Source: Micromonospora tarapacensis
GTDB lineage: Bacteria; Actinomycetota; Actinomycetes; Mycobacteriales; Micromonosporaceae
DNA: 64,000 nucleotides
Reading direction: 5' to 3'
Assembly (NCBI RefSeq): GCF_019697375.1
Contig: NZ_JAHCDI010000004.1
Coordinates: 2,963,324-3,027,323 of the forward strand
Below are positions 2,916 to 42,052 of this stretch, one piece after another. The position numbers and the translations under genes were made by a program. The notes beneath the pieces are model-generated. The model had not been told where the DNA came from. It was given only the letters and a program-made list of their open reading frames with translations, and did not search any database. Within the stretch, counting starts at the first letter, position 1. Each line of letters begins with the position of its first letter.

Positions 2916-5039
2916 ATGCCAGGAACGGTCGGGCGAGTCCCCACGCCAGCAGGCCCCGTCCCGGACGCGGCGGCGGGGGCCGCGCACATCGTCGGCCACC
3001 ACCGCTGGAGTGCCACCGCGCTCGGTCCGTACGAGACCTGGGATGCCGACCTCCGGGCGGCCGTCGAGGTCGTGCTCGCCTCGCCCGCGCCGATGGCGCT
3101 GCACCTCGGCGACCAGTTGCTGCTCCTCTACAACGAGGCGTACGCCGCACTGATCCGCGACCGACATCCGCAGGCGGTGGGGCGGCCCACCGCCGACGTC
3201 TTCGCGGAGGTCTGGCAGCGCCCGGGCATCGGCGACGTGGTCGAGCACACCTACCGCACCGGTGAGCCCTTCCTGGAGAAGGAGATCCCCCTTCCGTTGC
3301 ACCGGCCCCCCGACGGGCTGGAACACGCGGTCTACACCAGGGCCTGCTCTCCCGTTCGGGACAGCCGCGGCCGGGTCGCCGGCGTGCTGTCCGTGGTCGC
3401 CGAGACCAGTCCGGCGACGCGGCACCTCCAGGGGCTCAGCGACTTCGCCGCGGCGCTGTCCGGCACCCTCACGCTGGACGACGTGGCACGGGTGGCGCTG
3501 CGCCACGCGATCACCTCGTTCGACGCCGACCGCGTCTCCTTCGCGATCGACGACACCGGCGGCGGCAGCGGGTGGCGGATGGTCCGGCGGGTCCGGGGCG
3601 AACTGGTGGACGAGGCGGACGAACGGCTGCCCCCGTTGTGGCGGCGCGGCCCGGCGGACTGGCCGGTTCCGGCGGTGGTCGGCGCGCGCAGCGGGCAGGC
3701 CAGCTTCATCGACGACGGCCAGCCGCTGCACGAGATCGCGGTCGATCGACACGACCAGAAGGTCCGCGCCCTGGCGGTGATGCCGCTGCGGGCGTCCGTG
3801 GTCCGGGGCGCGCTGAGCGTCGGCTACCGGTCCCCGCACGCCTGGTCCACGGCGGAACGGGCGCTGCTCACCGCGTCGGCCGAACTGGTCGGGCAGGCCA
3901 CCGACCGGGCCCGTCGCTTCGAGACCCAGCACGGCACCGCCCAGCTGTTGCAGCGCAGCATGCTGCCGGAGAATCTGCCGGTCCTGCCGCGCCTGCGGAT
4001 CGCGGCGCGCTACGACCCCGGCGTCGACGGCAACGCCGCGGGCGGGGACTTCTACGACGCGTTCGTGCTGCCCAACGGTGACCTGGGGGTGGTGCTGGGC
4101 GACGTCGCCGGCCATGACGTGCAGGCGGCCGCCCGGATGGGCCAGGTCCGCGCGGCGCTGCGGGCGTTGGCGCTCAACGACCACCGGCCCGACCAGGTGC
4201 TCAGCGGGCTGGACCGCCTGGTCAGCAGCCTCGGCGCCGAGGCCGGCACGCACGAGTTGTTCGTCACCGTGGCCTTCGGCGTCATCGACGTCGAGCGTGG
4301 CAGGCTCACGCTGGCCAGTGCCGGCCATCCGGCGCCGCTGGTGCGGCGCTGCACACCGGCCGGCGACTCGCGGGCCGAGTACCTCGACGTGCCGTCCGGC
4401 GCCCCGCTGGGCATCGGCTACCGGCCCGCGACGCGTACCGCCGACTTCTCGCCCGGCGACACGCTGCTGCTGTTCAGCGACGGCGTGGTGGAACGCCGCC
4501 GGCAGGGGCTGTCGCACGGGCTGGCCCGGCTGGCGGAGTCGGTGGCCGCGGCGCCCAGCGGTGATCCGCGGTCGCTGTGCGCCGTGGCCTCCGCGGCGGT
4601 GCCGGGCACCACCGAGGACGACGTGGCCGTGCTCGCCGTCGAGTACGCGCTGCGACCGAGCCGGTCCGCGCGGATGGAGGTGCCCGCCGAGCCGACGGCG
4701 CCGAGCCGGGTGCGGCACTGGATGACCGCCCAGCTCGCGCAGTGGCGGGTGGCCGAGTCCGTGATCGGCGCGGCGGTCCTCTGCACCAGCGAGCTGACCA
4801 CGAACGCGCTGCTGCACGCCGGCACGGCGGCCCGGGTGGAGGTCGACCTCAGCCCCGAACGCCTGCTCGTGTCGGTGGCCGACCAGGGCTCCCGCGGCAC
4901 GGTCACCCGAGCCCGGACGGAGACGTTGAGCAGCCGGGGGCGCGGTCTGGGCCTGATCGAGGAGTTGAGTGACGCCTGGGGCACCGATCCCACCGTGCGG
5001 GGCTCGACGGTCTGGTTCGAGATCCTCCTCCCGCAGTAG
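2916..5039 (+). CDS. PAS-GAF-SpoIIE phosphatase with C-terminal HATPase domain
   Basis: A 707-residue multidomain signalling protein. Residues ~30-155 look like a PAS sensor, ~170-335 a GAF domain, ~360-560 a PPM/SpoIIE serine phosphatase, and ~585-707 an anti-sigma-type histidine-kinase-like ATPase. Phosphatase metal-binding motifs are visible: GGDFYDAF near 375, GDVAGHD near 394 and FSDGVVE near 519. The ATPase shows ELTTNALLHAG near 625 and GRGLGL near 675. Such proteins combine the RsbU-like phosphatase and RsbW-like kinase of partner-switching systems that control SigB/F-type sigma factors. No anti-sigma antagonist lies beside it; the sigma factor at 12336 is a possible, unproven, client. 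Confidence 0.88.
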   Translation: MPGTVGRVPTPAGPVPDAAAGAAHIVGHHRWSATALGPYETWDADLRAAVEVVLASPAPMALHLGDQLLLLYNEAYAALIRDRHPQAVGRPTADVFAEVWQRPGIGDVVEHTYRTGEPFLEKEIPLPLHRPPDGLEHAVYTRACSPVRDSRGRVAGVLSVVAETSPATRHLQGLSDFAAALSGTLTLDDVARVALRHAITSFDADRVSFAIDDTGGGSGWRMVRRVRGELVDEADERLPPLWRRGPADWPVPAVVGARSGQASFIDDGQPLHEIAVDRHDQKVRALAVMPLRASVVRGALSVGYRSPHAWSTAERALLTASAELVGQATDRARRFETQHGTAQLLQRSMLPENLPVLPRLRIAARYDPGVDGNAAGGDFYDAFVLPNGDLGVVLGDVAGHDVQAAARMGQVRAALRALALNDHRPDQVLSGLDRLVSSLGAEAGTHELFVTVAFGVIDVERGRLTLASAGHPAPLVRRCTPAGDSRAEYLDVPSGAPLGIGYRPATRTADFSPGDTLLLFSDGVVERRRQGLSHGLARLAESVAAAPSGDPRSLCAVASAAVPGTTEDDVAVLAVEYALRPSRSARMEVPAEPTAPSRVRHWMTAQLAQWRVAESVIGAAVLCTSELTTNALLHAGTAARVEVDLSPERLLVSVADQGSRGTVTRARTETLSSRGRGLGLIEELSDAWGTDPTVRGSTVWFEILLPQ

Positions 5040-5095: not shown

Positions 5096-7611
<2,516 letters not shown>

Positions 7612-7634
7612 TCGACCGATCGGCCCGCCGGCCC

Positions 7635-7664
7635 CCTGCGTCCCGCCCGAGGGCGGGACGCAGG
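7635..7664 (+). terminator. terminator of the GH6 gene
   Basis: A perfect 14-bp stem: CCTGCGTCCCGCCC (7635-7648) pairs with GGGCGGGACGCAGG (7651-7664), starting 24 bases after the cellulase stop. Confidence 0.8.
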
Positions 7665-7790
7665 AGGCCGGTTCGTCGGCACTGACCGCCCATTGCGGGG
7701 GCACTCCCGAACGGCTCGACGGCCCGATGCCGCGCCGGCGTTACCGCCGCCGCGACCCGGGAAGGCGACTGCCGACGAAGGAGGAGACCC

Positions 7791-13160: not shown

Positions 13161-13169
13161 GGGGGTGCC

Positions 13170-13204
13170 GACGGTGGCCGGGTCCGCAGGACCCGGCCAC
13201 CGTC
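13170..13204. terminator. bidirectional terminator after the sigma-factor gene
   Basis: A perfect 16-bp stem with a 3-nt loop: GACGGTGGCCGGGTCC (13170-13185) pairs with 13189-13204. It lies between convergent stops at 13160 and 13219. Confidence 0.85.
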
Positions 13205-13218
13205 GTGTCCACGCCGGC

Positions 13219-23714: not shown

Positions 23715-23752
23715 CCGGGTGGGGCGCCGTCGGCGACCGGCGCCCCACCCGG
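23715..23752 (+). terminator. terminator of the GH9 gene
   Basis: CCGGGTGGGGCGCC (23715-23728) pairs perfectly with 23739-23752, a 14-bp stem with a 10-nt loop that begins four bases after the stop codon. Confidence 0.8.
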
Positions 23753-37760: not shown

Positions 37761-37796
37761 TTCGGGGGTGGAACCGAAACTGGTTCCACCCCCGAA
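37761..37796. terminator. bidirectional terminator between the helicase and LPXTG genes
   Basis: TTCGGGGGTGGAACC (37761-37775) pairs perfectly with 37782-37796, a 15-bp stem with a 6-nt loop, between convergent stops at 37641 and 37814. Confidence 0.85.
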
Positions 37797-39656: not shown

Positions 39657-39680
39657 AGTTCCTGACCTGGGAGGATGCTC

Positions 39681-40322
39681 GTGACCGCGCCCATCTCCAC
39701 CCCCCTCACGCCGTACGCCACCCTCCTCGGTTTCACCCGGTACGTCGACCGCACCGGGCCGACCAAGGCCAGCTTCGTCGGCGGCCTGCGTCGACAGCGG
39801 GCGAGCCGCTCCGGGTTCAACCCGCACGGCCAGTTCGTCAAGGCACTCAAGGCCGACATCGCCTTCCACACCGGCGGCACCCATCTGGCTCAGGTGGTCG
39901 ACGTGGTCAAGCCCCGGTGGCGTCCGCTCTACCAGGCGCTCGTGCCCGGCGCGACGGCGTGGCTGCACTCCCTCGGCGAGCCCGCCGGTGTCGACCTGGC
40001 CCAGACCCGGGACGCCCTGGCCATGCTCGGCGACCTCCCTATCAAGATCAACCCACACTTCGGCATCCGGTACGCCGACGGCCGCGCCGAGGCGGTGCGG
40101 CTGCACTTCGACGAGGCTCCGCCCAGCGAGGAGGCGATGCTGGCCGCGCTGCACCTGACGGCCCGGCACATGGACGCCGTCCTGCCACACGCCGAGCCGG
40201 TCCTGGTCGACGTCCGCCGGGGCACGACCCACCGGATGCCCGAGGGCACCAAGCCCGACGAGATCGAGCGCTGGCTCGCCGGCGAGGCCGCCGCCTTCCG
40301 CGCCATCTGGTCCGCCGCCTGA
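39681..40322 (+). CDS. conserved hypothetical protein (213 aa)
   Basis: A 213-residue soluble protein: VTAPISTPLTPYATLLGFTRYVDRTG, then KASFVGGLRRQRASRSGFNPHGQFVKALKADIAFHTGGTHLAQVVDVVKPRW. It is rich in basic residues and predicted to be mixed alpha/beta. No named domain is recognised; the H-x-x-R and QVVDVVKPRWRPLYQALV pattern suggests a conserved nucleic-acid or nucleotide-related protein, but this is a guess. GGGAGG is placed six bases ahead of the GTG at 39681 and directly against an ATG at 39675, so the GTG is preferred. A 7-bp palindrome precedes it. A strong hairpin follows the stop by 60 bases. Confidence 0.6.
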   Translation: MTAPISTPLTPYATLLGFTRYVDRTGPTKASFVGGLRRQRASRSGFNPHGQFVKALKADIAFHTGGTHLAQVVDVVKPRWRPLYQALVPGATAWLHSLGEPAGVDLAQTRDALAMLGDLPIKINPHFGIRYADGRAEAVRLHFDEAPPSEEAMLAALHLTARHMDAVLPHAEPVLVDVRRGTTHRMPEGTKPDEIERWLAGEAAAFRAIWSAA

Positions 40323-40381
40323 CCTGAGCCGTCCCATCTGCCCACGTTTCACCGGCTCGCCCGAACAAGCCGCAGCTCAGC

Positions 40382-40437
40382 AACTTCGGGGACGATGTTG
40401 CCTCGGCGTGCCCGGAGGCAACATCGTCCCCGAAGTT
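40382..40437. repeat. 23-bp perfect palindrome, left flank of the DUF559 gene
   Basis: AACTTCGGGGACGATGTTGC... (40382-40404) and its exact reverse complement (40415-40437) enclose a 10-base loop. A closely related hairpin lies at 41442-41499 beyond the other end of the gene; left arms match at 21 of 23 positions. Confidence 0.85.
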
Positions 40438-40482
40438 CCATCGACTCCTGCTGCACAAGGGGCAGGAGGGGAGCGGCGGCGG

Positions 40483-40491
40483 TTGTCCACA
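40483..40491 (+). promoter_or_regulatory. DnaA-box-like sequence TTGTCCACA
   Basis: TTGTCCACA, the actinobacterial DnaA-box consensus, lies 42 bases ahead of the DUF559 gene. It is a single copy, so it is not an origin; it may be chance or a promoter-region site for DnaA. Confidence 0.25.
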
Positions 40492-40532
40492 GGGGTGTCG
40501 GGAGAGGCTTCCGGTCGTTCAGGGTGGACGGC

Positions 40533-41426
40533 ATGGCCACCTCCGCTCGGCGTCCGCCGCAACTGCGCGGGCGCGTCTTCCGTGGTTCTTGTGCCGTGGC
40601 CCGAGGGCTGCTGACCCGGGGCGAGTTGCGCAGCAGAGCGTGGCGGCCGATCTTCCGGGACGTGTACGCCGACGCCCAGCTCACGATCTCGCACCGCACC
40701 CGGTGCCAGGCTGCGGCGCGGTGGGTTCTTCCGCCCGGTTCGGCGATCGCCGGGCGGAGCGCCGCGGCCCTGTTCGGTGCCGGGTTCATCGGAGACGCCG
40801 AACCGCTCGACGTTCTGGTGCCCGCCGGGCAACGCTTCGGGCCGGTCGCCGGTCTCGCGGTGCATACCGGCGAGGTCGCCGAGGTCGACGTGCTGTCACA
40901 CGCCGGGATGCCGGTCACCACGCCGCTGCGGACCTGCTGGGATCTGGCCCAGTGGCTCAGTGTGGAAGAGGCCGTGGTTGTGGTGGACCGGCTGCTCGGC
41001 CTGCGGCTGCTGCAATCGGATCAGCTGCGGGAGCTGGCCCACCGTCGTCACGGCGCCCGGGGCTGGAAACGCATGCTTCGCGTGGCACAGCTTGCCGACC
41101 CCGGCGCGGAGTCGGCTCAGGAGTCACGGCTGCGGGTGCGGATCGTGCTGGCCGGTGTTCCGCAGCCGGTGACCCAGTTCGTGTTGCAGCGGGATGGCAG
41201 GTTCATCGCCCGGGTCGATCTCGCCTGGCCGGAGCTGAGAATCGCGGTCGAGTACGACGGCCTCTGGCACGATGATCCGGAGCAGTTCCACCGTGACCGA
41301 CGGCGCCTCAACCGCCTGCTCGGCGAGGACTGGATCGTGTTGCACGTGACGGCACAACGACTCCGCCAGGACTTCAACGGCTTCCTCGCCGAACTCCGCC
41401 AAGCAATCCGCACCCGCACCAGCTGA
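40533..41426 (+). CDS. DUF559-type endonuclease-like protein with AbiEi-like N-terminus
   Basis: A 297-residue protein. The N-terminal ~100 residues (RGLLTRGELRSRAWRPIFRDVYADAQ) resemble the winged-helix start of AbiEi-type antitoxin/regulator proteins, with a central region containing LRTCWDLAQWLSVEEAVVVVDRLL. The C-terminal ~110 residues match the DUF559/Vsr-like nuclease fold: a RVDLAWPELRIAVEYDGLWHDDPEQFHRDRRRLNRLLGEDW segment with the D...E-x-D pattern of PD-(D/E)XK enzymes. This layout is frequent in actinomycetes, in many copies per genome, and its function is unknown. ATG 40533 is chosen as the first start after the left palindrome. Flanking related hairpins on both sides suggest a cassette. 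Confidence 0.8.
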   Translation: MATSARRPPQLRGRVFRGSCAVARGLLTRGELRSRAWRPIFRDVYADAQLTISHRTRCQAAARWVLPPGSAIAGRSAAALFGAGFIGDAEPLDVLVPAGQRFGPVAGLAVHTGEVAEVDVLSHAGMPVTTPLRTCWDLAQWLSVEEAVVVVDRLLGLRLLQSDQLRELAHRRHGARGWKRMLRVAQLADPGAESAQESRLRVRIVLAGVPQPVTQFVLQRDGRFIARVDLAWPELRIAVEYDGLWHDDPEQFHRDRRRLNRLLGEDWIVLHVTAQRLRQDFNGFLAELRQAIRTRTS

Positions 41427-41441
41427 CCCCTTCTTGCCCAG

Positions 41442-41499
41442 CAACTTCGGGGAAGATGCTGCCTCCGCATGCGCCGAGGCGACACTTTCCCCGAAGTTG
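41442..41499. repeat. 24-bp imperfect palindrome, right flank of the DUF559 gene
   Basis: Left arm 41442-41465 and right arm 41476-41499 match at 20 of 24 positions around a 10-base loop, starting 16 bases after the DUF559 stop. It is related in sequence to the palindrome at 40382 and may also serve as a terminator. Confidence 0.8.
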
Positions 41500-41512
41500 C
41501 ACAGGTCCTGGG

Positions 41513-41902: not shown

Positions 41903-41935
41903 CCCGCGTCCCCGTGTTCCGCTTCCGCCCCGGCG

Positions 41936-41992
41936 GTCGACTCCCGGCCCGACAGTCGACTCCCGGCCTGACAGTCGACTCCCGGCCCGGCG
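41936..41992. repeat. three tandem 19-bp units
   Basis: GTCGACTCCCGGCCCGACA and two near-copies (41955, 41974) follow each other directly with one or two substitutions each, ending in a partial GTCAACG. They lie in the 353-base gap between the deaminase and hrpA. Confidence 0.85.
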
Positions 41993-42052
41993 GTCAACGA
42001 TAGACCGCCGCCCCTCTGGCGTGCGTCGCCCGTGCCCTGCCCCACCACGGCC

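Follow-up and report, generated by a model that had tools for sequence, protein, structure and literature searches.

The window, a 64,000-nucleotide stretch of the Micromonospora tarapacensis genome, contains an AbiEi-like/Vsr-like nuclease gene enclosed, as a single gene, by an upstream and a downstream palindromic element that we designate type A (Table 1; type A has the sequence AACTTCGGGGA...). This bracket was first proposed in a reading of the sequence alone (hereafter, the sequence-only reading) and is real: the upstream palindrome is perfect, the downstream element is related to it, and one gene lies between them. The downstream element is situated between the convergent 3' ends of the nuclease gene and a cytidine deaminase gene, and the neighbor on the other side, the gene at 39675-40322, has no Pfam or NCBIfam match. 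When both neighbors were checked against families, neither matched one of nucleotidyltransferases. A search for a stem followed by a T run, as in intrinsic terminators, found three sites, none of them at either type A element. Elsewhere in the window, a 19-nt tandem repeat resembling CTCCCGGCCCGACAGTCGA occupies 41903-41997, upstream of the deaminase gene, and four more strong hairpins of other sequence occur at 7628-7671, 13169-13205, 23715-23752 and 37761-37796.

Table 1. Features of the nuclease locus (window coordinates)
Feature	Position	Strand	Remarks
Upstream palindromic element, type A	40375..40440	.	82% identity with downstream element across 66 nt
Perfect 23/23-bp palindrome in upstream element	arms 40382-40404 / 40415-40437		
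TTGTCCACAGG, DnaA-box-like motif	40483..40493	+	-50 from start codon
AbiEi-like/Vsr-like nuclease gene	40533..41426	+	297 aa
AbiEi-like two-domain half	40554..41099	+	fold residues 8-189
Vsr/EDxHD-type nuclease half	41109..41423	+	residues 193-297
Downstream palindromic element, type A	41441..41500	.	related to upstream element

The encoded protein and its promoter region

Structure alignment and a PADLOC match place a winged helix and the C-terminal AbiEi fold in the first half of the protein, and the second half has the Vsr/EDxHD nuclease fold with its catalytic residues conserved (EDxHD being the name of this motif). By structure alignment and profile match, this catalytic half is close to I-Bth0305I. 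The nuclease residues D229, E240, D242, H246, D255 and R258 are invariant among 57 sequences. Foldseek returned nothing from the PDB at E ≤0.001, with 1zel (Rv2827c; 1.7e-3) and 3r3p (1.3e-2) as the top rows, so the fold assignment draws on the second-look alignment, the PADLOC match and the profile match. The joining of an AbiEi-like N-terminus to a Vsr-like nuclease, another proposal of the sequence-only reading, is borne out by the fold and the conserved residues. Against DUF559 (Pfam PF04480) the protein scored 19.0 bits, below the gathering cut-off of 20.6. It had no match among 50,697 phage records, and a phage origin was rejected on that ground. The gene is under purifying selection, with a dN/dS of 0.17-0.18 against four orthologs; the corresponding values for the upstream neighbor gene are 0.06-0.17.

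Of 78 loci, 50 have the DnaA-box-like motif TTRTCCACAGG, with at most one mismatch, upstream of the gene, for the most part at -49/-50; none of 1422 control windows has it. Its occurrence near -50 extends to most Micromonosporaceae loci (L042-L120 set), with 0 in Geodermatophilus, Modestobacter, Blastococcus and similar genera. The sequence and position of this DnaA-box-like motif suggest that expression may be tied to replication.

Recurrence of the bracket and types of palindrome

A genome scan identified 79 loci encoding relatives of the protein. Sequence-blind hairpin finding revealed that loci without type A often carry a different palindrome, many on both sides; some orthologs are without type A and some have no detected palindrome. 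Type B has the sequence GGAWGTAGTGGCCTCC and type C the sequence GAAAGAGTGGCTATTCC, the palindrome of Catellatospora loci is GCAGTTTCGGGGAAACTGC, and loci of Geodermatophilus, Modestobacter, Blastococcus and similar genera have several further types. The agreement between arm length and the 23-bp repeats bound by AbiEi proteins is limited to one palindrome, the other types pairing over about 14-36 bases.

Among 79 of 83 loci (four with short flanks dropped, four own-genome paralogs included and the window left out), 49 had an upstream hairpin with a score of at least 14 within 250 nt, 43 had a downstream one and 26 had both, compared with 6 of 638 control windows; in the same set, upstream-downstream similarity reached at least 25 at 49 loci, a level seen in 5.9% of 1038 pseudo-gene controls and in 11% of 1500 cross-locus pairs. 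Chance was rejected on the hairpin and pair-similarity controls and on dN/dS.

Across the 31 loci that share one chromosomal site and have at least one hairpin, the more the proteins differ, the less alike the palindromes are (r -0.61). With species distance fixed, the partial correlation in these loci was -0.60 (0/2000 permutations), and there was a smaller species component of -0.33 (0/2000 permutations). The matching of gene and palindrome sequences is well supported. The interpretation given by the sequence-only reading is supported in part: the association is real, recurs and changes with gene type, whereas recognition or movement of the palindromes by the nuclease is a hypothesis, and the palindromes may act as duplex inverted repeats rather than as hairpins. 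Many loci have palindromes on one side or none.

The M. tarapacensis genome itself encodes paralogs, of which one has a matched pair (L012), two are one-sided (L011, L015) and two have none (L010, L013). One paralog match (L010/L014, G000:C3:206939-207777) consists of two overlapping pieces and is perhaps a broken gene; a palindrome pair was not found there. For a second paralog, a matched pair was present in 7 of 21 loci at a threshold of 24 that was set once the scores were known, with L273, L275 and L285 duplicating loci of the earlier scan and L191 starting within its gene. Several genomes have another palindrome, GATCAACTCGGGTTC..., at this second paralog (L269, L270, L279, L280). In a broad draw of 60 genomes for DUF559 genes, 29 matched and gave 30 loci via a crude ORF caller, five of them incomplete; a clear bracket was found at 2 of the 30 (L162, L177) and a one-sided hairpin at two (L157, L164), so the bracket is not general to DUF559 genes. 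Four of six relatives from a plasmid collection were examined, and three were bracketed, the Nonomuraea one not.

Dispersed copies of the palindromes

The genome of the window has 12 type A sites plus one doubtful site, two of which form the bracket. The sequence-only reading had held that palindromes lying mostly away from the gene, or the same gene without them, would speak for chance or for ordinary terminators. Literally taken, 10-11 of the 12-13 own-genome sites do lie away from the gene, which is the dispersal that a REP-like system predicts; orthologs without the window's palindrome do exist, and many of them bear another one, often on both sides. Given the dispersed copies and the alternative palindromes, both objections apply only in part and by the letter.

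Half-arm patterns were counted in 30 genomes hand-picked to cover the types (own genome excluded; some typed by a single side; G011, with C upstream and A downstream, and G024, with a diverged A, grouped as type A). For the A pattern, the 12 type A genomes had 6-37 matches on both strands (median 15.5) and the remaining 18 had a median of 1; for the B pattern, nine type B genomes had 11-56 (median 35) and the 22 not of that type had a median of 0. Mann-Whitney P was 6e-4 (A) and 7e-6 (B), the genomes not being independent. Reversed-pattern controls totaled 0 for A and 1 for B. Abundance tracks the cognate gene, as in REP/RAYT systems, with exceptions and among genomes that are not independent: type B genomes G015, G018, G019 and G021 had 17, 18, 55 and 15 A matches, and the non-B genomes G004, G005 and G013 had 14, 8 and 19 B matches, the remaining non-B genomes having 0-3. 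We read these off-type copies as putative relics of replaced cassettes. Among 72,556 plasmid records at E ≤0.001, the palindromes that bracket three distant relatives (29-32% identity) had matches under their own species or strain name only: at 20 places in eight records of Tsukamurella tyrosinosolvens, at 10 places in two records of Arthrobacter StoSoilB13 and at six places in one record of Arthrobacter ERGS1:01, where a place seems to be one count per strand per palindrome and bracket copies are included.

In G019, 28 of 42 copies were classified as convergent (12), unidirectional (11), divergent (3) or within a called ORF (2), and nine own-genome copies as unidirectional (4), convergent (2), divergent (2) or unknown (1); these classes come from a crude gene caller, with adjacent A and B copies counted twice. 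Copies of A and B in G019 are often ~80-155 bp apart, start to start. Side-by-side A/B copies, mostly ~130-150 bp apart, occur on its contigs C5, C16, C39, C78, C83, C86, C99, C110 and C112, several of which end near such pairs.

One B element, located between convergent genes, could be read in 10 of 13 relatives and is conserved in all 10. Across nine genomes (9 of the 10 read B elements, G091 omitted), pairing is retained in 271 of 279 cells of a structure predicted from their own alignment, and two-sided changes occur at three pairs. Arm conversion, as well as selection, could explain this intact pairing. At a site where G019 has a B element, six relatives have a GATCAACTCG...CGAGTCGATC element that resembles GATCAACTCGGGTTC.... 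Comparison of sites among relatives revealed neither a clean-ended insertion nor a duplicated target, in intergenic DNA too variable to judge by. One presence/absence site has an A copy in G019 and G021 that is absent from the 11 other relatives read, in intergenic DNA too variable for defining ends. Among the five relatives read at own-genome site L006, a related palindrome stands at the same gene 3' end in G001, G099 and G100, that of G006 is further off and G009 has none.

Cassette exchange and chromosomal sites

Between the type A locus L049 of M. noduli and the type B locus L059 of M. saelicesensis, the neighbor gene differs by 2.2% and the protein by 35%. Their flanks are 96.6-98.8% identical until just beyond the stop codon of the upstream gene, and again after the second palindrome. 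Between these flanks the palindrome types differ, and nothing can be aligned except pieces of the gene, at 74-84% identity, and one stretch of 43 nt at 91%. Within the 43-nt stretch, L049 has a 20-nt B-like left-arm remnant at 4826, directly before its A element at 4848. The alignment shows a cassette swapped for another type between close relatives, at one site. Length differences between L049 and its relatives near 7081 and 8940 were considered and set aside as variable repeat-rich stretches, not palindromes. Much of the genus has the gene at a single site, so the cassette as a whole must seldom move.

Type A genes are not confined to one chromosomal site but are found at two or more. The second is common to L050, L053 and L055, whose flanks give 16-19 kb of summed tblastx matches among one another and 1.1-1.5 kb against the window. 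At L055 the palindromes are found only downstream of the gene; four successive type A palindromes with intervening DNA lie at 5914-6455. M. endolithica carries both L055 (type A) and L076 (type B, at the shared site).

Discussion

Our preferred interpretation, which we hold with moderate confidence, is that of a REP-like system of repeats whose enzyme is a nuclease other than a RAYT, with palindrome-gene-palindrome as its unit. From the foregoing we infer palindrome binding, cleavage, mobilization, copying and a link to replication. The AbiEi-like half would recognize its cognate palindrome by the arms, possibly with one monomer on each. PMC7319586 describes AbiEi and Rv2827c as binding, in their own promoters, paired inverted repeats of 23 bp, and the arms of the perfect palindrome are 23 bp; the simplest model would hence have two monomers on the duplex arms, which would bring a pair of nuclease domains to the element. 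The Vsr/homing-endonuclease-like half might then cut or nick at or near the palindrome, and repair or strand transfer could copy or move the palindrome among intergenic sites and, rarely, the whole cassette. Cognate palindromes would accumulate in this way, each gene type retaining its own palindrome family, and expression may be linked to replication via the -50 DnaA-box-like motif.

Three other readings were weighed. If the palindromes were operators, the AbiEi-like protein would autoregulate, the dispersed copies would be regulon or nucleoid sites, and the nuclease would act elsewhere, in mismatch repair or defense. The AbiEi fold of the protein, the published binding of AbiEi and Rv2827c to inverted repeats in their own promoters, and the upstream palindrome preceding the gene all agree with such a role, which nevertheless appears unlikely: an operator needs no matched copy after the stop codon, the nuclease residues are invariant in the 57 sequences, and copies are mostly convergent or unidirectional rather than divergent (23 vs 3 in G019, n=28; 6 vs 2 in the own genome, n=8). 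The gene might instead be a free-standing homing endonuclease inserted in its own recognition palindrome, with dispersed copies as potential targets and spread by break repair. This would account for the proximity of the catalytic half to I-Bth0305I, for two-sided palindromes that look like one duplicated or split site, and for the swap between close relatives. Simple homing leaves unexplained how dispersed palindromes multiply without the gene, and we judge it quite improbable.

It is very improbable that the palindromes are ordinary bidirectional terminators or mRNA-stabilizing hairpins that flank the gene by happenstance. The placement of the downstream element between convergent 3' ends, the prevalence of dispersed copies at convergent or unidirectional gene pairs and the retained pairing of the B element are what terminators would show, yet neither element of the bracket has a T-run terminator-like site, and this reading does not explain why the pair matches, why it varies with protein type or why copy numbers follow gene type. 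As the sole explanation, terminators fail on the T run, type matching and type-tracking abundance; they could explain the positions of dispersed copies, not the matching of gene and palindrome. Dispersed copies may well function as terminators or RNA hairpins, a role also put forward for REPs, without this being the reason for their existence.

The REP-like interpretation offers a testable function for an uncharacterized actinobacterial nuclease family and for dispersed palindromes to which our searches assigned no owner. A functional pairing would mean that repeats of the REP kind also arose with an enzyme unrelated to RAYTs. We give about an even chance to the broader proposal of a second, independently evolved REP-type system, in which actinobacterial AbiEi-Vsr nucleases recognize and multiply their own palindromes, with pairs coexisting or replacing one another and possibly DnaA-timed; if true, it would be the missing RAYT counterpart in high-GC Gram-positive bacteria. 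The A, B, C and other types also form a natural matched protein-DNA set from which the DNA reading of the AbiEi fold could be learned.

Comparison with known systems

AbiEi antitoxins (type IV TA) share the fold of residues 8-189; here it is fused to a nuclease, with no neighboring nucleotidyltransferase and with palindromes also downstream and dispersed. The catalytic fold and its acidic/His residues are shared with Vsr/EDxHD I-Bth0305I and with DUF559 (Caulobacter VsrA, in the accessible part of PMC12907096), whereas the gene described here is stand-alone and intergenic, its protein having no phage-record match. CGTC REPs and the repeats counted by RepRanger are dispersed palindromes without an owner, and the palindromes here are likewise dispersed. 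Within the available text of PMC12306157, the RepRanger table gives repeat counts for three Actinomycetota species and the term 'DUF' has 0 occurrences; a further REP survey, likewise partly available, is PMC1590033. DUF559/AbiEi-nuclease genes tied to dispersed palindromes were not found in our literature search, which drew on partly accessible sources and left most subscription journals and bioRxiv uncovered.

The closest likeness is to REP/REPIN-RAYT systems (REPtrons), as the comparison drawn by the sequence-only reading anticipated and as the dispersed copies and the cassette exchanged between relatives bear out. In both, palindromes flank one gene, cognate copies are dispersed between other genes, and several classes occur per genome. 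The accessible parts of PMC3686654 and PMC3733652 describe this layout, in which abundance seems to be tied to the cognate gene, and the latter places published REPs mainly between convergent and unidirectional genes. In comparison with REPs, the elements here are longer (about 56-86 bp) and less frequent, a genome having at most tens of half-sites, and by eye they show no obvious unpaired GTAG/CGTC tag. The Actinobacteridae in the sample of PMC6006769 have TnpA subclass 1.1 only, as far as the available part of that paper extends. A RAYT is a Y1/HUH enzyme, and an AbiEi-like and Vsr-like protein stands in its place here; a RAYT in the own genome was ruled out by 0 matches to the Y1/HUH transposase family (PF01797) in the whole genome. 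With the layout of a REPtron but an enzyme of another fold in place of a RAYT, the present system is like, and yet is not, a RAYT system.
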